Origin: Bdellovibrio bacteriovorus
GTDB taxonomy: Bacteria; Bdellovibrionota; Bdellovibrionia; Bdellovibrionales; Bdellovibrionaceae
Direction: 5' to 3'
Assembly (NCBI RefSeq): GCF_001592755.1
Contig: NZ_LUKF01000003.1
Coordinates: 1-64,000, forward strand
DNA: 64,000 nucleotides
Shown: piece after piece, positions 46,877 through 58,373 of the stretch
Layout of the letters: every line of letters starts with the position of its first letter
Position numbering within the stretch: the stretch's first letter is position 1
The notes under the pieces: generated by a model
The model's database searches: none
The model's input: only the letters and a program-made list of their open reading frames with translations
Told to the model about the DNA's origin: nothing
Made by a program: the position numbers and the translations under genes

Positions 46877-49800
46877 TTAGCGGTAGGCTTTACCGCGACC
46901 GTTATTCCAAACACGGACACTGCTTGGAGCATTCACGCTTTGTGCAGCGGTTGAAGAGAACGTCAGTGTTCGTGTGTTGACATCGCTATCCCCTGTTACG
47001 CCTGTCAGATATCTTTGAGAAATATCATTCCACACGCAACCTGCGATCTGTGATCCTGCTTCAGGAAGAATCACGATATTCACATCTCCCGGATTTACAA
47101 CGGAGCTCGGCACTTGAATTGCGGCCCCACCGTTACCGCCATTATAACCATTCACGTCGGTGTTCACATTTGCTCCATCGCTGACATCGGAAAGACCACC
47201 GGATCCACCGCCACCACCAAAGTAGCCGCCACCACCGCCGCCGCCGTAAGAAAGAGAGCATGTTCCAGCTCCACCACCGAAACCGGCACCAAAACCACCG
47301 CGACCGAATTTTGCCTGGCCGGGATCGTTCCCTAACGCTGATCCGATCAAACAGCTGCTTCCACCTTGACCTCCAGAAGCATTTATTTGCGCAGAACCAT
47401 TTGAAGGGATGTAGTCGTGAACCGTCGCCCCAACGGCAAGTGCGGTTGCGGCTCCACCACCGACGCCACCACCTGAAGCTCCGGCACTTCCTGCGACAGC
47501 CGCAGCAAGGGGTCCTTCGCCGGCCCCACCTTGCCCTTGAGCACCGTCATTGTTGTCGGTTCCTCCACGACCGCCTCCGCCACCGCCTCCGAAGATAAAA
47601 CCTTCGTTGATGATCGTGACATTAGCGTGAAGCGCGTAAACTTGGAAAGCTGTGCCTCCGTCTTGTCCTTGACGTAAATTACCTGGGGTCGCGGCAGATG
47701 GAGCACCTCCAGAACCACTGGCTCCAATAATACTTCCTTCATTTATAAGGCGAACCCGCGCGGTTGTTGACAGTGCACCTGAGGATGTACCAGTCATCAT
47801 CGCAGCTATTGCCGGATTATTGCTGTAAACTTTAACCCCTGGATTTACACGCACAACGAAAGTTCGATTCGAGTTGGCGATCGCCGTGCTGTATTCGGTA
47901 ACAGCCCTATCCCAAATATCATAGTTCGTGGTATCCGCTGCAATAGGCGCCAAAACCACAGCATCTGTCAATGATACGTTGATTGTCGCAACGGCAGATT
48001 CATCCGTACCACCGGCATCATCTTTTACTTTCACCGTCACAACGGCAGATGAATCCACACCAGGAGTCGCTGTCAATACAATATTCACACTGCCATCGCC
48101 GACTCGTGTCGCTGAACAGTTGACGTTAAGTCTTGTCGGATTTGAATTTGTACAAATAAGCGAGGCCGTTTGCGCGCTCTCATTTGCCGGCCCCACCGAG
48201 AGAGTTAATGGGACGTTTTCGACTTTATTGCCGGAAGGATCTAATAAAATTTCCCATGTTGTGGGAACACTTGTGATCGTCGGAGCATCATTCACCGGAT
48301 TCACAATGATCTCGATTTCTTGATCCACGATGGAATTTCCAGCACCGTTGCCATCGTTAAAGCGAATTTTTGCAAAGCAAGATCCAAAATAATGAGCGCG
48401 AGGCTTAATACTCACCGCACCCGTTGTGGTGTTGATCAGAATATCTGATGCCGGAGTTGCAACGACACTGGTGTCATTACATGCTGTACCCGAAAGACCT
48501 GTGTAAACTAAAGAGTATAGGCCTTGTCCTTCATCCAAAGAACTTACGTCGGCATTTGAAAGCACTTCAACAACACTGCTCGCAAAACTCGGATCATCTT
48601 CGGTCAGAACATCAGGCGTCGCAATCGACAATGTGGGCGCTGCGTTCGCAACAGTGATTGCCAAGGACTGCATATGTGAAGCCGCATTCGGATCGGTAGC
48701 GCGTATTTCTAACTGACATCCTCCGACGTTGCTATTATCGGGCGTTCCCGAGATAGTGACTGTTCGACCATCCGCGGACGGAGTTTCAGTCAACCAAACA
48801 CAATCGTCAGAGCCATCACGAATGACTGTGAGATTTTCTGGATCGGGATCTGTGATCGCAACCGTGCAGGAATACGCAACGTCTTCCGTCGCGGATGCAG
48901 AACAGGGTGTAAGGTTTGTCGCGACCACCGGAGCATCCTGAACATTTGTTACGGTCAATGCAACTTCCGTATATCCCGTTGAAGGAAAGCCATCCGTTAA
49001 CGCGATACGAATATAACAGACACCTTGATAATCCGGCGCCGGTCTAAAAGAGACCTCGCCTGTCGAAGCGTCAATAGTCAGATTCGAAGCCGCTGGAGCC
49101 GCCGCATGATCCACGCAATGATCGCCAGAAGCCGTCGGCGTTACTAAACTGTAAGTGCTTCCACTTTCTTCAATCGAAGAGACATTTGCTCCTGGAATAA
49201 TCACGGCAAAAGCGGCATCTTCTAAAAGACTGTAAGGTCCGCCCGTCACATTAATAATAGGGGGAGAGTTCGTGATTGAAATGTTCCATGAAAAACGAGT
49301 GCTCTGCCCCGCCACATTGTCTTCAGCATAAACGTCAACCTGACAGCTCGTTCCCACTTCAGCGGCACCTGGAATTCCACTGACTTCACCAGTATTGGCA
49401 TCGATTGACAACCAGCCTCCGCAGGTCGTCGTGCCATCGAGATGATAAGTTAAAGTCAAAGGACTTGGAAGATCCACGTCGGTCGCGGCAATAGTACAGG
49501 AGTAATTGTAGTTTTCGCCAATCGTTGTCGGGCAAGCCAAAGTTTGAATAACGGGAACATCATTCACCGGTGTCACATCTAAGGTCACTGTGGCTACCGC
49601 TGATTCATTGCCGGCACGATCGACGATTTTATAAGTGAAACCGTCATCCGCTTCATTATTTAAATTTGGAGAATAGTGACAATTCAGTACGTTTGAATTT
49701 GCCACACAGCCCGTCAAAGTTCCGCGCGTGGGACTGGATACAAAGACAATGCGGTACTGGTCGTTTTCGGTAGGAGCATTCAAAGTAAAGCTTTGTGGTG

Positions 49801-50221
49801 TATCTTCAGTCACTACTACTGTTTGATCGGCACCAACAACAGGAACTTGGTTGTCGAGAAGAAAACTTCCGACTTCAACGATATCTTGGGATGCGCGAAT
49901 CACGGCGGTCAAACGAACGCTATACACTGTCGGCGTCAGCGTCGAAATATTCCAATCATACTCTCCGTCGTTTTCAAGTCGCGATTCAACAACGGTCCAT
50001 GTCGAACCACCGTCGGAGGACATTTCTAATGTTAAGTAGTCAGGTTCCATGGTGCCGTGGGCTGTTGCCCAACGAATGGGAACTGTGTCGGAAGGTTTAT
50101 ACGCAGGTTGCAGTGATCCCGTCGCTCTCAACTGAGAACTAAAAGCTTCTAGACTGGCGTTCATACAACTCGCCAGAAACAGAGGGACTGTTAGTAGCAA
50201 AACAAGACGTTCCAGATGCAT
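46877..50221 (-). CDS. Cadherin-like lipoprotein with Gly-rich fibre-tip domain
   Basis: An 1114-residue lipoprotein. Lipobox LASC is at about residues 16-19, followed at once by MNASLEAF. An N-terminal beta domain (about 35-125) is followed by tandem cadherin-like/Ig repeats with recurring VNDxPV linkers (about 130-790). The last 270 residues are of another kind: RLINEGSIIGASGSGG, then INEGFIFGGGGGGGRGG and long Gly/Ala-rich stretches (about 870-1085). The pattern IxNxGxIxGxGGxGG is known from phage tail-fibre tips with polyglycine helices. So this looks like a stalk plus adhesive tip on the cell surface. It is divergent from the first pentapeptide/HTTM operon, 69 bases away. Confidence 0.85.
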   Translation of the reverse strand: MHLERLVLLLTVPLFLASCMNASLEAFSSQLRATGSLQPAYKPSDTVPIRWATAHGTMEPDYLTLEMSSDGGSTWTVVESRLENDGEYDWNISTLTPTVYSVRLTAVIRASQDIVEVGSFLLDNQVPVVGADQTVVVTEDTPQSFTLNAPTENDQYRIVFVSSPTRGTLTGCVANSNVLNCHYSPNLNNEADDGFTYKIVDRAGNESAVATVTLDVTPVNDVPVIQTLACPTTIGENYNYSCTIAATDVDLPSPLTLTYHLDGTTTCGGWLSIDANTGEVSGIPGAAEVGTSCQVDVYAEDNVAGQSTRFSWNISITNSPPIINVTGGPYSLLEDAAFAVIIPGANVSSIEESGSTYSLVTPTASGDHCVDHAAAPAASNLTIDASTGEVSFRPAPDYQGVCYIRIALTDGFPSTGYTEVALTVTNVQDAPVVATNLTPCSASATEDVAYSCTVAITDPDPENLTVIRDGSDDCVWLTETPSADGRTVTISGTPDNSNVGGCQLEIRATDPNAASHMQSLAITVANAAPTLSIATPDVLTEDDPSFASSVVEVLSNADVSSLDEGQGLYSLVYTGLSGTACNDTSVVATPASDILINTTTGAVSIKPRAHYFGSCFAKIRFNDGNGAGNSIVDQEIEIIVNPVNDAPTITSVPTTWEILLDPSGNKVENVPLTLSVGPANESAQTASLICTNSNPTRLNVNCSATRVGDGSVNIVLTATPGVDSSAVVTVKVKDDAGGTDESAVATINVSLTDAVVLAPIAADTTNYDIWDRAVTEYSTAIANSNRTFVVRVNPGVKVYSNNPAIAAMMTGTSSGALSTTARVRLINEGSIIGASGSGGAPSAATPGNLRQGQDGGTAFQVYALHANVTIINEGFIFGGGGGGGRGGTDNNDGAQGQGGAGEGPLAAAVAGSAGASGGGVGGGAATALAVGATVHDYIPSNGSAQINASGGQGGSSCLIGSALGNDPGQAKFGRGGFGAGFGGGAGTCSLSYGGGGGGGYFGGGGGSGGLSDVSDGANVNTDVNGYNGGNGGAAIQVPSSVVNPGDVNIVILPEAGSQIAGCVWNDISQRYLTGVTGDSDVNTRTLTFSSTAAQSVNAPSSVRVWNNGRGKAYR

Positions 50222-50290: not shown

Positions 50291-50836
50291 ATGATGAGAC
50301 ATTGGCACATTTTCTGGACCGTCTTCATTTTCATTCTGACAGCTGTGCAATCTAGCTCTGGACTAACATTGAGTGCATCACCCTTAAGTGGAAAAACTCA
50401 TCCCGGCTTCGACTATAGCGAAAAGCCCCTAGCTCTATCTCAAGTGATCAATGCTCAGTTTACCAAAAGTTCTTTTAATTTGAACAACTGGTTTCAAGTC
50501 TCTTTTAGGAACGTGGCTTGGAAAGAGACAAATCTCACAGGCACCCGGGCCACGAAGGTCGAGTTTGATAGTGTTGAATTTAAAAACTCGGATCTATCTG
50601 GTTTTAAGTGCACTCATTGTGGTTTTAAAAATGTGATTTTTGAAAATGTGAAAATGGACGGTGCTCATTTTCTAGGAGCCGTCTTCACAAATACGCACTT
50701 TATTAAAAGCGATCTTCGCCGCGCAGATTTTATTTCCAGTTCTTTCCAAAACTGCACCATAGATTCTGACACCGCAAAATATCTGTCGGCTGAAAAGCTG
50801 CAAAAATGGAAACTTCAAGTGAAGGAGACGCCGTGA
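50291..50836 (+). CDS. Exported pentapeptide-repeat protein 1
   Basis: A 181-residue protein with an N-terminal signal or anchor (about residues 1-24). About residues 50-155 are pentapeptide repeats of the A(D/N)LxF type (FKNSDLSGFKCTHCGFKNVIF, then MDGAHFLGAVFTNTHFIKSDLRRADF), forming a right-handed square beta-helix in this family. Three Cys are present. Its TGA overlaps the GTG of the HTTM-like gene (GTGA), so translation is coupled. A similar but shorter protein is at 56698 in the same position relative to a second HTTM-like gene. Confidence 0.82.
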   Translation: MMRHWHIFWTVFIFILTAVQSSSGLTLSASPLSGKTHPGFDYSEKPLALSQVINAQFTKSSFNLNNWFQVSFRNVAWKETNLTGTRATKVEFDSVEFKNSDLSGFKCTHCGFKNVIFENVKMDGAHFLGAVFTNTHFIKSDLRRADFISSSFQNCTIDSDTAKYLSAEKLQKWKLQVKETP

Positions 50837-52005
50837 GATATTTTCAGTCTCAACTTGAAGAAATAAAAAATTCACGTGCCTTGCAAGTCTATGGCGCCCT
50901 CTTGGCACTGACACACTTATTAAGTGCCTATTTCTGGATGGATCGGTCTTTAGATCTGGTTACGAAGGCCTCACCCATCTCGGCCTCTTTGTGTTGGCCG
51001 TTTTTCCCGGCATGTGATGCGATTCGTTTTTCTTCCACCGGCCAAGCGTCGATGTTTTTAGAGGTCTATGCCGTCGCTTCTATAGTGGTTGCAGGGCTTT
51101 TTTTATTCCGCCGTTTGCAGTCAGCTTACTTTGGGCTGATAGGATTACTGATTTTAAAAATCTTCTTTACGAGTTTGTCTTACGGGCTGATGGGGAACTA
51201 TCATTATATGACGTTCTTCACACATCTCGCGTTTTTGTTTCTTCCTACAAAAATAATAACTATTCCTTTTTTTATCGGTGTTTTCTATTGGGGCGCTGGC
51301 ATTCTGAAGTTTGATCCTGAGTGGTTAAGCGGTACTGCTTTAATCACTCCAAGTTTTTTGCCTTCAGCCGTCGAGCATATCAGTCTTATTTATGCCGTTA
51401 TCTTAGAGTGTATTTTTGTCTTTGGTTTATTTAGCAAAAAAAGATGGCTTCGCGGACTGGTTCTTTTGCAGTTTGTCGCGTTTCACGCTTTTTCCTGGCA
51501 CATTGTCGGTTATTTCTATCCCATGACGATGTTTTTGCTATTGGGAATTTTCGCCTTAGTCCCTCTTTATAAAGAAAGATGGCAAGCGGTTATAGATTCC
51601 AGACTTTGGCAAAAGAAAAGCACTCTGTTGCCGGTGATGCTTCTTATTCTTCTGCAAATCGTACCGAGCCTTCTTGCCGGTGACCCTGCCGCTAGTGGTG
51701 CGCCAAGAATTCTTTCCTTAAACATGCTTGATGCAAAAATGGAATGCGAAACTCTTTTAATTCGCCATGCTTCTTTGTCTGAGGAAACTTACGATCCCTT
51801 TGTGAAAGCGCCGTCAACACGCACGCAGTGCGATCCGTTAGTGTTTCTGTCGCAGATTCAATTGGTTTGTAAAGATCGCTCAGAAAAAATGGACTTCTGG
51901 CTTTCTTCAAGACGAACGACAGCCGACGTTTTTAAAACACGTCTTTTCCTTCCTGACGTTTGCTCTAAGTCACAAGCTGAAATTCTTTGGGCGGAAATTT
52001 TATGA
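50833..52005 (+). CDS. HTTM/gamma-carboxylase-like membrane protein 1
   Basis: A 390-residue polytopic membrane protein. I chose the GTG at 50833: AAGGAG (50822-50827) lies five bases upstream and GTGA overlaps the previous stop. Features shared with its paralogue at 57132 are SLCWPFFPAC, GNYHY, AGILKFDPEWL, FGLFSKK, FHAFSWH and FFYPMTM-type motifs. The AG-x-LK-x-x-P-x-W stretch resembles the AGVKKLDADW region of vitamin-K-dependent gamma-glutamyl carboxylase, where Lys is the active base. The C-terminal ~100 residues are outside the membrane and carry four Cys matched in the paralogue. Enzyme activity is inferred. The next gene starts within its stop codon (ATGA). Confidence 0.65.
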   Translation: MRYFQSQLEEIKNSRALQVYGALLALTHLLSAYFWMDRSLDLVTKASPISASLCWPFFPACDAIRFSSTGQASMFLEVYAVASIVVAGLFLFRRLQSAYFGLIGLLILKIFFTSLSYGLMGNYHYMTFFTHLAFLFLPTKIITIPFFIGVFYWGAGILKFDPEWLSGTALITPSFLPSAVEHISLIYAVILECIFVFGLFSKKRWLRGLVLLQFVAFHAFSWHIVGYFYPMTMFLLLGIFALVPLYKERWQAVIDSRLWQKKSTLLPVMLLILLQIVPSLLAGDPAASGAPRILSLNMLDAKMECETLLIRHASLSEETYDPFVKAPSTRTQCDPLVFLSQIQLVCKDRSEKMDFWLSSRRTTADVFKTRLFLPDVCSKSQAEILWAEIL

Positions 52006-53270
52006 TGAAGTATGCTTTCGTCCTTTACAGTGTCATCGTTTTAATATTCCTAGCCCGCGCCGAGATAAAAACCTGGTCGATGCTGGACAGCGATCTTCGT
52101 CTGCAAAAGCCGAAAGATCCCGTTCAATCCGAAGTTCTGCAGTACCAATTGAGTGCGGAAGAAAAAAAAGAAAGTTCATCGACCTATCGCCGCGACAGCC
52201 GACGCTCTGGTCATCATGAAGTCGAAGCCGCGCAATTCACACCTTTCCAAATTCTTTGGCAGGTGGCGGAAGTGAATAACGGCATTCATCGTGCAAGTAA
52301 AAGTTCACCGGCCGCCGATGACCAAGGATTTTATATTGCGGATGATACGGGTTTTTTAAGAACCTACGACTGGCAAGGACGCTTGCGCTGGCAGTTTTAC
52401 AGTGGTGTCAGCCCCCGCGGAATGCATTCAACGCCGCTCACGGATAAAGACAGTGTCTATATGGGCGATTACGCGGGCTACCTCTATTCGTTGAATAAAG
52501 AAAATGGAAAGATTCGTTGGATCACGAAAGCCGGGACCACTGTGGGCTCTTCGCCATTTATGCATAATGGACTTCTTTACGTCGGCATCGAGCTTCCAGA
52601 GCCAAATGGCTTTTTGTTGGCCCTAGAGGCACGCACGGGAAAATGGGTTTGGACTTCACCTTTAATTGGAAATCATCCCCATTCCTCTCCCACTCTGGAT
52701 ATTTCTAATGCGCAGATCTTGATGGGCTCAAACACCGGGGCCTTGGTGGCCTACGACCTTAAAGATGGAAAACCAAAATGGTCCTTTGCGACGAATGACG
52801 ACATAAAATGTGCAGCCGCGCTTTCGGGAGCCAATGCTTACTTCACTTCTTGGGATGGTTTTCTGTACTCCTTAAATACAACGACAGGCCTTTTGCAATT
52901 CCGTTTACCTTTAGATGGATCAGCAATGAGTTGTCCGTCCATTAATAAAGACGGAACCCTTATTGCCGTTACTGGCTTTAATAGAAACTTTGTCGTACAC
53001 GGACCTTCCGGCAAAGTCCTTTGGTCCTCGGAAATCAAAGGACTTAAATCACGAGCACAATCAAGCCCTCTGATTATTAGCTACGCCCACCAAGAGGTGG
53101 CGGTTTTTCTTTGCGAAGAAAAAGCTTTGTGCGTGCATGATCTTCATTCAGGAAAAGTCTTACAGGAAATAAAAATGGAGAGCGCATTTTCAGGCTCTCC
53201 CGTTTATTTTAAGAATCATCTTTTAATTTCGACATCGGGAAAAGACGGACTCTTGGTCCTTAAAAACTAA
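52002..53270 (+). CDS. Membrane-anchored PQQ-type beta-propeller protein
   Basis: A 422-residue protein with an N-terminal membrane anchor (about residues 3-20), a charged linker (about 45-75) and a beta-propeller of PQQ-like repeats (about 95-422). Repeats show the usual pattern: LYSLNKENGKIRWITKAG, LLALEARTGKWVWTSPLIG, LVAYDLKDGKPKWSF, LYSLNTTTGLLQFRL. No PQQ-enzyme catalytic motif is seen, so it is more like BamB-type scaffolds. The ATG at 52002 overlaps the HTTM-like stop (ATGA). It may present or hold the substrate of the HTTM-like protein. Confidence 0.85.
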   Translation: MMKYAFVLYSVIVLIFLARAEIKTWSMLDSDLRLQKPKDPVQSEVLQYQLSAEEKKESSSTYRRDSRRSGHHEVEAAQFTPFQILWQVAEVNNGIHRASKSSPAADDQGFYIADDTGFLRTYDWQGRLRWQFYSGVSPRGMHSTPLTDKDSVYMGDYAGYLYSLNKENGKIRWITKAGTTVGSSPFMHNGLLYVGIELPEPNGFLLALEARTGKWVWTSPLIGNHPHSSPTLDISNAQILMGSNTGALVAYDLKDGKPKWSFATNDDIKCAAALSGANAYFTSWDGFLYSLNTTTGLLQFRLPLDGSAMSCPSINKDGTLIAVTGFNRNFVVHGPSGKVLWSSEIKGLKSRAQSSPLIISYAHQEVAVFLCEEKALCVHDLHSGKVLQEIKMESAFSGSPVYFKNHLLISTSGKDGLLVLKN

Positions 53271-53278
53271 GGCGCGGC

Positions 53279-53911
53279 TTACTCCACCGTCGCGCCTACA
53301 GGTCCCATCAATAACTTATAGCCGTTTTTCTGAGCGACCACTTTGTCGTACTGAGTTCCCACCGTGGCGGTCATACGCCAACCTTTAGGATTCGATGCCT
53401 CGTGAGTGCCTCCGCCCCCGCCGCCACCAACACCGACAGTCGTGGTTTCTTTTGCTGGAGCATTAAACACGACATCTTTTTCGGGATGGAAGTCCGCTAG
53501 ATTTTCATAGCGAATGGATTTCACACCTGAATCAGTGGCTTTCATAGCACAGATCGAAACCCCGTAGCTGTCACTCAAGCTACAATCGGCTTTCACAACG
53601 CCTGTGCCTTTCGTGACAGAATAGTCAGGGCGATATCCCTGCACGACAGTGTTATCTGAATTCATCAAGCGCACAACAACCAAAAGCTGAGAATTTCCGT
53701 CTGAAATGCCGTGCGAACCCACCAGGACTTCTGTATTTTCAAAATCGGCTTTTGATGGATCTGTCACCACACCCGCAATAGGTCGCTCTGGCAATACAAT
53801 GCCAGGAGGAAGTTTGGGACCAGAAAGTCCCGCAAGATTTTCAAGACTGGCTTCGATTCCGCAACCGGCAAGAAGAAGCGTAAGTAAAGGCGCAAAGACG
53901 TACCAAACCAT
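53279..53911 (-). CDS. Lipoprotein with Gly-rich insert, EASLE motif
   Basis: A 210-residue lipoprotein. Lipobox LAGC is at about residues 14-17, followed by GIEASLENL, which resembles the start of two much larger lipoproteins in this window. A beta-rich region (about 45-150) is followed by a short Gly run (VGVGGGGGGGTHE, about 160-172) and a final beta part. The ATG at 53911 has GGAGG upstream with five bases between; an open frame to 53923 starts with TTG. Family unknown. It is convergent with the propeller gene, eight bases apart. Confidence 0.78.
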   Translation of the reverse strand: MVWYVFAPLLTLLLAGCGIEASLENLAGLSGPKLPPGIVLPERPIAGVVTDPSKADFENTEVLVGSHGISDGNSQLLVVVRLMNSDNTVVQGYRPDYSVTKGTGVVKADCSLSDSYGVSICAMKATDSGVKSIRYENLADFHPEKDVVFNAPAKETTTVGVGGGGGGGTHEASNPKGWRMTATVGTQYDKVVAQKNGYKLLMGPVGATVE

Positions 53912-54036
53912 ACCTGCCTCCAAAATATCTATATATTATTATCGGCCCGGGTCTGGGATTTCTTAAATGACAGATTTTCAACTCTTCTATATGCGACTTT
54001 AGTTCTTCTGAAGATCAGCCGAAGTATTATAATGAT

Positions 54037-54672
54037 ATGAATATCCGGAACGTCCTCCTTATTATATTGGGAACTGTGGTTGTCTCTGTTACAACCGCAT
54101 TAGTAACCGTGCGTATGATCCAATCGGATCTTGCCTCTTCAACTCTCAAACAAGTCGATCCAAATCTTACGCAAACAACGACTCCCCCATCGACGATGAT
54201 AAAGCTGTCACCGACGGCTCAAGTTCCGCCACCACCTCCACCCGCTGTGCCGGCTCCCGCACCTGTGCCTAAGTTGGCTGCCGATCCAGCGGGCCCAAGT
54301 ATCGAATCTCTACTTCCTCCGAAAGAATTTGATCCTAATTATGACGCTCGGAAACCTCTTCGACCGGAAGAGGTCGTAAAAACTCTTTTAAAGAATACGC
54401 CTGATTGTGAAGACGATTATAAAGAGCTCTGCACAGGCAATCGGTTTCTGGCTGAACATCCTTTGGCATGTTTGCGTTCTCAAAAAGAGAAGATCTCGCG
54501 AGCCTGTGCCAACCAGGTCAGTGCCGTTCAAGATAAGTTTAAGACAGACTGCTCTTCGGACATTCAAAAATTCTGTCCTGAGCAACGTCGTTACTTTTCA
54601 TGCCTCAAAGCGAAATTCAATGAACTCTCTAAAGTCTGTCAGGCGAATATTAAAGAGTATTCTCGCAAGTAA
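54037..54672 (+). CDS. Membrane-anchored Cys-rich GLG1-repeat-like protein
   Basis: A 211-residue protein with one N-terminal membrane helix (about residues 5-27), a Pro-rich linker (about 60-85, with PPPPPPAVPAPAPVP), and a C-terminal part with two Cys-rich repeats of four Cys each (about 128-165 and 176-207; C-x6-C, then C, then C). The spacing fits the GLG1-type cysteine-rich repeat. Function is unknown. The Pro-rich linker suggests it reaches across the periplasm. A TATAAT is only three bases before the ATG, and no ribosome site is evident. Confidence 0.75.
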   Translation: MNIRNVLLIILGTVVVSVTTALVTVRMIQSDLASSTLKQVDPNLTQTTTPPSTMIKLSPTAQVPPPPPPAVPAPAPVPKLAADPAGPSIESLLPPKEFDPNYDARKPLRPEEVVKTLLKNTPDCEDDYKELCTGNRFLAEHPLACLRSQKEKISRACANQVSAVQDKFKTDCSSDIQKFCPEQRRYFSCLKAKFNELSKVCQANIKEYSRK

Positions 54673-54817
54673 TCGTCTCAGATTCATACGTTTACGATAA
54701 AATTTTGTAATTTTTTGCGTGTCTACTAATATTTTCGGCCAGTTTATCCGATATGTTTTGGTAACGAGGTAATTTGTTGTTCTTTGTTCTGTACGTAACT
54801 TTAACAAGGAATTTGGT

Positions 54818-56698
54818 ATGCTCTCGATTAGAAGCACTCTGGAAATAACTACGGCACTTCTACTAGCAGTCCCCGCTTGGGCACAGATGTCTGTGTCAGA
54901 GGTTCCTCAAGGCCTGACGATTCAAGGGCGAATTATTCAGCCTGATGGCCTTCCTTTAGAAGATTCCAACGTCCACTTCAATATCAAGGTCCTTTCGCCA
55001 GGTGCGGAAGCCTGTGTGTTATTTGAAGAAAACCGGGTCGTTAATATGACCAATAGTAAAGGTGTTATCAACTTTGCTATCGGGGCCGGCGAAGCGGGAG
55101 CGACAGTGGTGCCTGCAGGGCATACTTTGCCACTTCATAAAATTCTTAAAAACTCAGGAACGATTGCAGGCCTTGCAAGCTGTGCCGGGGGCCAGACAAG
55201 CTATGCGCCGAATGCCGGGGACTCCAGAAAAGTCCGTGTGACTTTCACCGTGGGTTCTGAAACTGTGGCGCTGTCTCCGGACTTTGATTTACGTTCGGTT
55301 CCTTATGCCATGGAATCTGAAAATGCCGTGGCTTTGGAAGGAAAAAAAGCGGCGGACTTTATTCAAGCTTCGGCCAATGTCACACAAAATCGTGTTGAGA
55401 CGCTTTTATTACCTGCTAACTTCGACGGACTTCTTGCGCTTTTAAATCCCAGTGCGAGCTCTCCGACAACAGGCTCTATCGGTATTCCATCTTCCGATGG
55501 CACCGCGACGGCTCCAGTGCGTGACGGTCTTATGCGCTACGATGAAGCCACACAGACAGTTCAAGTTTCTATCGGAGGAACTTGGCAAAATGTGGTGACT
55601 GGAAATACGGGTGTGGGTTCAAGCAATATCGAAGACGGTTCTGTGGGATCTGCAGATATTGCAGACAATGCGATTTCTGGTGGAAAAATTCTTAATAACG
55701 CCGTGACAACTGATAAGTTGGCTGACGAATCCGTTACCAGCGACAAGCTTATGAATAACTCGGTAACGAACGGCAAAATCGCTGACGGCGCGATTACATT
55801 TAATAAAATTGCAAATGGTGCTATCAGTACAATCAAAATCGTTGATGGCGCGGTGAACTCTGCAAAAATCCTAGATGGAAGTATCGCGACGGCTGACTTG
55901 GCAAATAGCGCGGTGACGACAGCTAAGATTGCTGACAGTAATATTACTACGGCGAAAATTGCAGACCAAAACGTAACAACAGCCAAGATCGCTGATAGCA
56001 ATATCACGACTGCTAAGATCGCGGATCAAAACGTGACCACAGCGAAAATTGCCGATGGCAATGTCACGACCGCTAAGATCGCCGATGCCAACGTGACCAC
56101 AGCAAAGATCGCTGATGGAAATGTGACTGACGCCAAGATCGCTTCAGTTTCTGGATCCAAAGTCACAGGAAATATTCCTGGTAACGCTGCGGGCTTCTAT
56201 GGAGCTTTGGCCGGTGACGTCGTCGGCGGACAAAGCGGTACCACAGTTCAACGTATGCAAGGTCGCTGGGTGGCCAACGTGAATCCAGGTGTAGGCCAAG
56301 TATTAAAGTGGGATGGTGGCCAGTGGGTTCCTCAAACAGATAATAACTCTGGTGGTACTATCACGAGTGTGAGTGTAGGCCCAGGCATGTGGGGTGGTGG
56401 CTCCTCAGGTGGCGTTTCCATCGGACTCAACAATACAGGTGTCGGTGCAGGTTGGTATGGTAATGGTTCTTACGTTCCACAATTCTATGTCGATGCTTCC
56501 GGACGTATTACGGCCGTAAATAACGTCGCCGTAAACGCGGGTTATGCTTCTTGCGGTGGAAATCTGCACGGAAGAGCCTGGATTTCGTCAAGCGGTTGTA
56601 GCAGCGCCACAATCGCTCAGTGCGTGAATGGAAGCACAGTCACAGTTGGAACCTTCTCAACAGGCGGAAGCTGTGACGGAGATGGCGACGGGTTCTAA
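54818..56698 (+). CDS. Trimeric fibre-like protein with decapeptide shaft
   Basis: A 626-residue exported protein. The signal peptide is about residues 1-22 (ending AWA). An N-terminal beta domain (about 30-170; LTIQGRIIQPDGLPLED) and a linker are followed by a shaft of exactly 17 decapeptide repeats (about 274-443), such as NVTTAKIADG. The C-terminal ~180 residues are Gly/Ser-rich with four Cys near the end and close with DGDGDGF. Such shafts are typical of trimeric phage-tail-like fibres. Bdellovibrio uses fibres of this kind (mosaic adhesive trimers) to recognise prey, so this is a candidate. AAGGAA precedes the ATG. The stop overlaps the next start (TAATG). Confidence 0.85.
   Translation: MLSIRSTLEITTALLLAVPAWAQMSVSEVPQGLTIQGRIIQPDGLPLEDSNVHFNIKVLSPGAEACVLFEENRVVNMTNSKGVINFAIGAGEAGATVVPAGHTLPLHKILKNSGTIAGLASCAGGQTSYAPNAGDSRKVRVTFTVGSETVALSPDFDLRSVPYAMESENAVALEGKKAADFIQASANVTQNRVETLLLPANFDGLLALLNPSASSPTTGSIGIPSSDGTATAPVRDGLMRYDEATQTVQVSIGGTWQNVVTGNTGVGSSNIEDGSVGSADIADNAISGGKILNNAVTTDKLADESVTSDKLMNNSVTNGKIADGAITFNKIANGAISTIKIVDGAVNSAKILDGSIATADLANSAVTTAKIADSNITTAKIADQNVTTAKIADSNITTAKIADQNVTTAKIADGNVTTAKIADANVTTAKIADGNVTDAKIASVSGSKVTGNIPGNAAGFYGALAGDVVGGQSGTTVQRMQGRWVANVNPGVGQVLKWDGGQWVPQTDNNSGGTITSVSVGPGMWGGGSSGGVSIGLNNTGVGAGWYGNGSYVPQFYVDASGRITAVNNVAVNAGYASCGGNLHGRAWISSSGCSSATIAQCVNGSTVTVGTFSTGGSCDGDGDGF
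55637..56146 (+). repeat. Seventeen 30-bp (10-residue) repeats in the fibre shaft
   Basis: A run of 17 units of 30 bases with no interruption. The protein pattern is x-x-(V/I)-x-x-x-K-(I/L)-x-(D/N), for example SNITTAKIAD. Units 10-17 are nearly identical in protein but vary at third codon positions. Early units are degenerate. Confidence 0.93.
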
Positions 56699-57135
56699 TG
56701 AAACGCCTGGCTTTTTACTACTCTGGATTAATCACCTTCGTGGGACTTTTGCAGCTGACCCATTTGGGTCAGCGCGTGTTCCCTCCTCCGAAAGTAAATC
56801 GACTTTATTTTCCATCAGAAGAGCAGGTATTCACACCTGCTTTTCCTATTTTAAATCCTGGGGTGCAGCCTTTGTTCCCTGCTTCTGAAGTGATCTTGCA
56901 AGAGCGACTGTACGCCCCGTTCGTCAGTTTGCGTGAAACCGATCTTTCGAATCGAAATCTTTCCAAAGCGCATTTAAGTTTTGCTGACTTGCGCGGAAGC
57001 AAGCTTTTAGGAACGGATCTTTCGCAGGCCTTGCTTTATGGCGCGCAGTTAGAAGGTGCGCTGTTTGATAAAAACACCCGCCTTCCCTTCTCTTATGAAA
57101 CGGCACTGGCGCTAGGAATGAAAGAACAGCTATGA
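56698..57135 (+). CDS. Exported pentapeptide-repeat protein 2
   Basis: A 145-residue protein with an N-terminal hydrophobic helix (about residues 4-22), a Pro-rich stretch (about 28-65), and pentapeptide repeats (about 78-125; LSNRNLSKAHLSFADLRGSK, then LLGTDLSQALLYGAQLEGALF). The ATG shares one base with the fibre stop (TAATG), and the fibre's final codons supply a GGAG-like site. Its own TGA overlaps the HTTM-like ATG (ATGA). It is the positional counterpart of the protein at 50291. Confidence 0.83.
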   Translation: MKRLAFYYSGLITFVGLLQLTHLGQRVFPPPKVNRLYFPSEEQVFTPAFPILNPGVQPLFPASEVILQERLYAPFVSLRETDLSNRNLSKAHLSFADLRGSKLLGTDLSQALLYGAQLEGALFDKNTRLPFSYETALALGMKEQL

Positions 57136-58373
57136 AGTCCTTGCTTCAAGAATTAAAAACCTATCCTCAGTTGCTTTTTGTCGGAGTGATTTTAAGCTTC
57201 GAACATCTGATCACTTTGTTTTTCTGGCTGACAGAAAGGCCTGTGCAATGGGTGCTCTCACCGTCAAACCCATCGGTATGCTGGCCCCTATTTTCAGCGT
57301 GCGCCGACTTTAAACCGTCTTCTGTCGTCTTAGGAATTATCTTAGCCGCGTACGGAATCATCGCTTTAGCGGCGATGTACTTCTGGATACGCAAGAATTT
57401 TCGCTGGGGCATTATCGCTCTTTGGGTGTTGGTCGCTATTAAATGCCTGATCATTCTTCAAGATTATCGTCTGACCGGCAACTACCATTATCTTCCGACT
57501 CTTATCACTGTTTGTTTCTTGCTTATTCCCGGGCGCGCTTACGCATTAACATTTAGCTTCTTTGTCATCTATTTCACAGCCGGTGTCCTCAAGTTAAATC
57601 CGACCTGGGTTAATGCAGAGGCTATTAATGAACGCCTGCTACCACTGATCGTCAATAAAATCGGCGTATGGTATGTGTTGGTCCTTGAACTTGCCTTCAT
57701 CTTTTTCTTATTCAGTAAAAAGAACCGCTGGTTTTATTTCATCTTTGCGCAATTGGTTTTATTTCATCTTTACTCTTGGCATCTCACTCGTTTCTTTTAT
57801 CCGACGGTGATGCTGACTCTTCTGGGAATCTTATTAGTCGTTCGCTCCACGGCGCCGGCCCTGGGTTTTAAAGAAACATTCAAAAGAGTTTTCTCTTCTG
57901 CTGAAGCCAAACTTTTAACAACATTTTTTATTCTTCTGCAGATTCCTCAATATTTAATTCCCGGCGATGCCGCCTTAACCGGCGAAGGCCGTATGTACGC
58001 TATGATCATGTATGATGGCCGAACTCAATGTCAGCCTTATTTGACTTTGTGGAAGAAGAATAAAGAAAAAGAAGAGATGCCTTTACAGCCCCCTTGGCTG
58101 ATCACACGCACAAAATGCGATGCCATGGTTTACTGGCGTTTGGCTCAAAACATCTGCAGCTGGACAAAGAAAGACGCTTCCATCGTGCAAGTCGATTTAT
58201 ACGTCCCCGTTCGCTATGAAAACACCGATGAGTGGCAGCCCCTGGTCGCTGCCACGGATGTCTGCAACAAAGAGCTGACGTATTCAAGTTTCTTCCCGAA
58301 TACGTGGATCAATAAAGTCACTCGCGAAGTGAGTCATCATGGCGACGGCTCCATGAATCCCGAAGAGGATTGA
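57132..58373 (+). CDS. HTTM/gamma-carboxylase-like membrane protein 2
   Basis: A 413-residue polytopic membrane protein, paralogue of the protein at 50833. Shared motifs: SVCWPLFSAC, LTGNYHY, AGVLKLNPTW, FFLFSKK, FHLYSWHLTRFFYP and a juxtamembrane GEGRMYAMIMYDGRTQC. The AGVLKLNPTW stretch lines up with the Lys-containing active region of gamma-glutamyl carboxylase. The C-terminal soluble part has four matched Cys. Start by ATGA overlap with the pentapeptide gene. The last 37 bases overlap the convergent Rieske-FAD gene. Function is inferred only. Confidence 0.67.
   Translation: MKSLLQELKTYPQLLFVGVILSFEHLITLFFWLTERPVQWVLSPSNPSVCWPLFSACADFKPSSVVLGIILAAYGIIALAAMYFWIRKNFRWGIIALWVLVAIKCLIILQDYRLTGNYHYLPTLITVCFLLIPGRAYALTFSFFVIYFTAGVLKLNPTWVNAEAINERLLPLIVNKIGVWYVLVLELAFIFFLFSKKNRWFYFIFAQLVLFHLYSWHLTRFFYPTVMLTLLGILLVVRSTAPALGFKETFKRVFSSAEAKLLTTFFILLQIPQYLIPGDAALTGEGRMYAMIMYDGRTQCQPYLTLWKKNKEKEEMPLQPPWLITRTKCDAMVYWRLAQNICSWTKKDASIVQVDLYVPVRYENTDEWQPLVAATDVCNKELTYSSFFPNTWINKVTREVSHHGDGSMNPEED

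Follow-up and report, generated by a model that had tools for sequence, protein, structure and literature searches.

Paired operons encoding GGCX-like membrane proteins with pentapeptide-repeat proteins, a β-propeller and a MAT-family fibre in Bdellovibrio bacteriovorus

What is the role of a membrane protein that is encoded twice in one stretch of DNA, each time directly behind the gene of a pentapeptide-repeat protein, once together with a β-propeller and once together with a surface fibre? The question is raised by 64,000 nucleotides of Bdellovibrio bacteriovorus (assembly GCF_001592755.1, contig NZ_LUKF01000003.1, positions 1 to 64,000; hereafter the window), which contain two operons: operon A (50291-53270), with the gene order PPR1-HTTM1-PROP1, and operon B (54818-58373), with the order fibre-PPR2-HTTM2, where PPR denotes the pentapeptide-repeat protein, HTTM the membrane protein and PROP the propeller (Table 1). 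The predicted fold of HTTM2 is that of human γ-glutamyl carboxylase (GGCX), with a conserved lysine at the position of the catalytic base.

A preliminary description of the window had given the two operons these coordinates, and all six genes are located there; the 4-nt overlaps that it reported between the PPR and HTTM genes are also present, as ATGA in operon B and, if HTTM1 starts at the GTG in position 50833, as GTGA in operon A. An in-frame ATG at 50806 is an alternative start of HTTM1; it would lead to a 31-nt overlap, as occurs in several HTTM1 orthologues. The fibre and PPR2 genes overlap by 1 nt, and the N-terminus of PPR1, as read from the sequence, is hydrophobic. HTTM1 and HTTM2 are members of one family, as had been claimed; both contain the motifs CWP..C, GNYHY, AGxLKxxPxW and FHxxSWH.

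Predicted fold and pocket of the membrane protein

The AlphaFold2 model of HTTM2, built from 60 relatives, has a predicted local distance difference test (pLDDT) score of 90.4 and a predicted template modelling (pTM) score of 0.88. When compared to the PDB with Foldseek, it matches ten chains of human GGCX, and nothing else, at E < 0.001 (E 8e-8 to 9e-7; the next match has E 0.35). In VIA-align, residues 6-401 of the model superpose on residues 58-539 of GGCX (Z 19.4, 363 residues, 3.8 Å), the first unrelated entry following at Z 8.8. The membrane part extends to about residue 275 of the model; at least about 75 of the aligned residues are thus in the periplasmic domain. The proteins had been proposed to be relatives of HTTM and γ-carboxylase proteins, and GGCX is indeed the one significant match of the predicted fold in the PDB. 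Searching the PDB sequences with a profile of the family does not find GGCX, which was recovered by fold comparison alone; the fold evidence exceeds what sequence alone offered, in that sequence models barely support the carboxylase reading and the predicted structure supports it strongly. By itself, a predicted GGCX-like fold tells nothing of the function of HTTM2. Comparison to a viral fold library yields no significant match, and an anti-phage library yields nothing for the membrane proteins.

K218 is the catalytic base of GGCX; W223, F286, A214 and M401 line the quinone site, N159, H160 and Y395 hold the glutamate, and the C99-C450 disulfide ties the domains together (PMC12589487). With the GGCX sequence checked against the PDB chain, hhalign (E 2.5e-4) places AGVLKLNPTW of HTTM2 on AGVKKLDADW of GGCX and the FH motif on FH286/287. 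K154 of HTTM2 falls on K218 in both hhalign and MAFFT, which bears out the earlier suggestion that the AGxLK region resembles the catalytic lysine region of γ-glutamyl carboxylase; W159 falls on W223, F211/H212 on F286/H287, and the Ala214 position is also kept. MAFFT further aligns N117 to N159, M293 to M401, C50 to C99 and C342 to C450. Across 23 non-redundant PPR-linked or fused sequences, K154 is kept in 96%, the set of K154, N117, H119, W159, F211 and H212 at 96-100%, and the predicted disulfide positions C50 and C342 in 91% and 100%, respectively. Overall, the 49 most conserved columns out of 413 in the alignment include 12 of 20 active-site and disulfide positions of GGCX (P 1e-7, a significance that is inflated, since alignment programs prefer to match conserved columns).

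Conserved partners and their distribution

The fibre of operon B, by its match to the MAT N-domain model well over the cut-off, is a member of the mosaic adhesive trimer (MAT) family, with a divergent N-domain. MATs, described in 2024 (PMC10769870), are fibres on the cell surface by which prey is recognized; according to that paper, the surface element bound by their N-domain awaits identification, and its main text makes no mention of pentapeptide, HTTM or propeller. The fibre shaft is a tandem decapeptide repeat of the type TTAKIADxNV, whose copy number differs between orthologues (601-694 aa); the tip is variable, and the C-terminus CDGDGDGF, which may bind calcium, is invariant in 10 of 10 operon B orthologues. 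Each of nine sampled genomes of the genus that have operon B contains DGDGDGF followed by a stop codon once, and 13 genomes lacking the operon have no copy; the tag is thus specific to the operon B fibre. The fibre also matches a tail-fibre PHROG (E 8e-44); a match of its shaft in the anti-phage library is taken as repeat similarity. In the genome that we take to be B. bacteriovorus HD100, the operon B fibre has 626 aa, the length of Bd2872, and is thus likely to be this protein. The window fibre, of equal length, is probably the orthologue of HD100 Bd2872, a gene that a transposon screen showed to be needed for predation (PMC6561027).

The propeller of the module has a BamB-like fold; it differs from BamB in scoring below the equivalog cut-off and in having a membrane anchor or a fusion to the GGCX-like protein. 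Elsewhere in the genome, another gene is more BamB-like and scores higher (212 bits), so that the propeller of the module is a dedicated paralogue. A natural fusion of HTTM and propeller (763 aa), modelled from 49 rows, has a pLDDT of 85 and a pTM of 0.68, with uncertain domain placement; the best Foldseek matches of its propeller are BamB structures (E 1e-21). By its position, the propeller comes after the domain beyond which GGCX has the remainder of its luminal domain; it may take over substrate docking.

As to the cofactor, MenD is encoded in the genome, over its cut-off, so menaquinone is likely synthesized and available in this organism; the futalosine route has no match in the genome. 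The one VKOR homologue carries a fused DsbA-like domain and thus probably has a disulfide role; a vitamin K cycle cannot be deduced from it.

The membrane protein is present in 42 of 291 Bdellovibrionota genomes. Operons A and B occur together and in synteny in ten genomes of the genus, and PPR-HTTM-propeller alone in other genera and families; with neighbouring genes assigned by means of home-made profiles and a rough score for repeats, PPR adjoins about 38 of 61 HTTM loci, and the propeller is found at most of them. The linkage of the genes, whose absence from other genomes would have refuted the preliminary description by its own criterion, is kept in many genomes. Fusions of HTTM and propeller occur at six loci, one of them in the genome of the window, directly behind a MAT and a PPR gene; this third genomic copy, MAT-PPR-(HTTM fused to propeller), and HTTM1 are the only relatives of HTTM2 in its own genome, in which two of three modules are in an operon with a MAT. 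Across 84,980 species genomes, a scan with two short patterns, by which relatives can be missed, gave records of the Bdellovibrionota type only. A MAT is found in 34 of the 42 genomes with the membrane protein and in 69 of the 249 without it (Fisher P 7e-11, kinship uncorrected). The proteins of the module are conserved (dN 0.05-0.14), with synonymous change close to or beyond saturation. Because of the synteny in ten genomes, this conservation despite synonymous saturation, and the third genomic copy, the arrangement seen in the window is real and conserved, and goes beyond chance.

In the tree, the operon A proteins of the genus, its operon B proteins and a set of pgsA-linked proteins each form one supported group; HTTM1 and HTTM2 are in separate groups, each with 100% support in the Shimodaira-Hasegawa-like approximate likelihood ratio test (SH-aLRT). 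By this phylogeny, operons A and B are old paralogues, so that the term "duplicated", used of the module earlier, holds for two homologous operons but not for a recent tandem duplication. The operon B group is most closely related to a fusion of HTTM and propeller, which suggests that operon B lost its propeller. The pgsA-linked proteins belong to a second arrangement, pgsA-like-HTTM-propeller, found at thirteen loci in one family. Its upstream gene was considered as a pentapeptide or membrane partner; its motif reads as that of a CDP-alcohol phosphatidyltransferase (pgsA-like). A 313-aa open reading frame with a partial HTTM match occurs at a further locus.

A candidate maturation system and its alternatives

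We regard it as an evenly balanced proposition that the module is an enzymatic, menaquinol-using, GGCX-like maturation machine for envelope proteins or exported adhesins. Its activity, cofactor, client and order of steps we infer as follows. The HTTM protein would be an inner-membrane enzyme of GGCX fold, most likely using reduced menaquinone; K154 would act as the base, like K218 of GGCX, activating the quinol with O2; and the ensuing chemistry, perhaps carboxylation, would modify an exported protein at acidic side chains or at neighbouring ones. The cysteine-rich periplasmic domain would be the counterpart of part of the GGCX luminal domain, the BamB-like propeller, adjacent or fused, would dock the client and pass it toward the outer membrane, and the pentapeptide-repeat protein would serve it in the periplasm as a dedicated partner or adaptor. 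For operon B, the MAT fibre encoded just upstream would be the client. The specific form of this proposal, in which menaquinol-dependent GGCX-type chemistry, perhaps true carboxylation, modifies prey-recognition fibres, the pentapeptide protein being the adaptor and the propeller the docking domain, is put forward as tentative and as less likely than not. The conserved operon with its GGCX-like candidate enzyme is a testable candidate for a maturation step of MAT fibres; if the enzyme is active, vitamin K-type chemistry would extend to bacterial adhesins, and small bacterial relatives of the human clotting enzyme would become available for mechanistic study.

The likeness to GGCX comprises the predicted fold of the membrane domain and the first part of the luminal domain, and the positions of the catalytic lysine, Trp223, Phe286/His287, Ala214 and C99/C450. 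The HTTM protein differs in its size (about 400 residues, compared to 758 in GGCX), in the BamB-like propeller that stands in place of the remaining luminal domain, and in its pentapeptide partner. Several observations weigh against a GGCX-like enzyme acting on the fibre. Two pocket residues are not retained in HTTM2, the Glu-binding Tyr395 being replaced by R287 and Lys217 by leucine, and H119 matches H160 only within one residue. The GGCX luminal domain is covered in part, the confident model ending near GGCX residue 504, so that much of the propeptide site is without counterpart in HTTM2. No Glu-rich stretch resembling those that carry γ-carboxyglutamate (Gla) was noticed in the fibre or the PPRs, 2 of the 21 MATs of the genome are linked to a module, and 4 of the 26 genomes whose modules are PPR-linked or fused have no detected MAT. 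Lastly, HTTM2 reaches 15.1 bits (E 0.018) with the Pfam HTTM model (PF05090), whose cut-off is 27.7.

HTTM1 alone has no match in Pfam, and 11 of 60 relatives match the HTTM model weakly. MauE and DoxX, the other families considered, have weak Pfam matches in 6 and 3 of 60 relatives, fewer than HTTM, and were rejected; their chains are absent among the PDB fold matches of HTTM2, which does not exclude them.

Could the module act without chemistry? The GGCX-like protein might have lost its chemistry and be a non-enzymatic assembly factor, a membrane chaperone or platform that works with the propeller and PPR in folding and delivering fibres and other large surface proteins. The BamB-like propeller, adjacent or fused, fits such a role, as does the pgsA-linked sister group, in which most pocket residues are lost and the four invariant cysteines, W159 and the propeller are kept; because of this loss, some members of the wider family probably act without catalysis. 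In the PPR-linked group, however, the near-complete retention of the six pocket residues named above would be needless for a pure scaffold, and we consider this explanation unlikely, though a serious one.

The preferred reading of a maturation enzyme also leaves room for a client other than the MAT fibre, such as the pentapeptide-repeat protein itself or other exported proteins (Ig lipoproteins, pseudopilin-like proteins), the link to MATs being secondary. As the module occurs in four genomes without detectable MAT, the fibre is not the sole possible client. PPR is, moreover, a more frequent partner than MAT, an Ig/cadherin-like lipoprotein is encoded divergently from operon A, and at four loci HTTM-type genes lie next to genes for large secreted or pseudopilin-like proteins, hinting at other clients. 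Set against this, the module shares an operon with a MAT gene both in the third copy and in the operon B of ten genomes, and neighbours other than MAT vary. For the PPR as Gla substrate, the alignment provides mild counter-evidence, as it contains no invariant Glu. A client other than the MAT fibre is, in our judgement, unlikely. Of the dedicated modification or assembly system for surface proteins envisaged in the preliminary description, with the PPR as substrate or adaptor, the linkage to surface proteins is borne out by the MAT fibre, whereas the PPR as substrate is mildly countered.

The genome also encodes three classical HTTM proteins that exceed the Pfam cut-off, each behind an SdpA-like gene, and we take them to be SdpA/SdpB-like pairs; although the family profile resembles them weakly around the Lys and His motifs (hhalign E 3e-5), maturation of a small secreted toxic peptide, as by the HTTM protein SdpB in Bacillus, is very improbable for operons A and B, in which no SdpA-like partner or small peptide gene was noticed and whose membrane proteins differ in their neighbours, in their match under the Pfam cut-off, and in an extra four-cysteine periplasmic domain that matches GGCX instead.

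Neighbouring genes

Table 1. Coordinates and matches of the genes of operons A and B and of their neighbours in the window.
Feature	Coordinates	Strand	Remarks
1114-aa Ig/cadherin-like lipoprotein, divergent from operon A	46877..50221	-	Pfam Big_9 5e-12, He_PIG 5e-8
PPR1, exported pentapeptide-repeat protein	50291..50836	+	first gene of operon A; PF00805 57.1 bits (cut-off 20.2), PF13599 60 bits
HTTM1, GGCX-like membrane protein	50833..52005	+	32% identity to HTTM2 (E 7e-50); motifs and cysteines as in HTTM2
PROP1, membrane-anchored BamB/PQQ-like β-propeller	52002..53270	+	PF13360 84.6 bits; TIGR03300 (BamB equivalog) 87 bits (cut-off 285)
Lipoprotein between operons A and B	53279-53923	-	
Cys-rich protein between the operons	54037..54672	+	weak, sub-threshold Cys_rich_FGFR match; syntenic in the genus genomes examined
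MAT-family fibre, 626 aa	54818..56698	+	NF053851 Bdello_MAT_N 167.5 bits (cut-off 60)
PPR2, pentapeptide-repeat protein of operon B	56698..57135	+	PF00805 53.3 bits (cut-off 20.2)
HTTM2, GGCX-like membrane protein	57132..58373	+	AlphaFold2 model; Foldseek and VIA-align to GGCX; alignments

The large lipoprotein next to operon A has a glycine-rich end and is syntenic beside this operon in the genus; it is a possible client of the operon A module. The lipoprotein between the operons shares with lipoproteins at three other loci, all near MAT genes, the N-terminus C-x-(M/I)-E-A-S-L-E after the lipobox; the exact DNA pattern for this N-terminus occurs in three places of the genome, two of them beside MAT genes.

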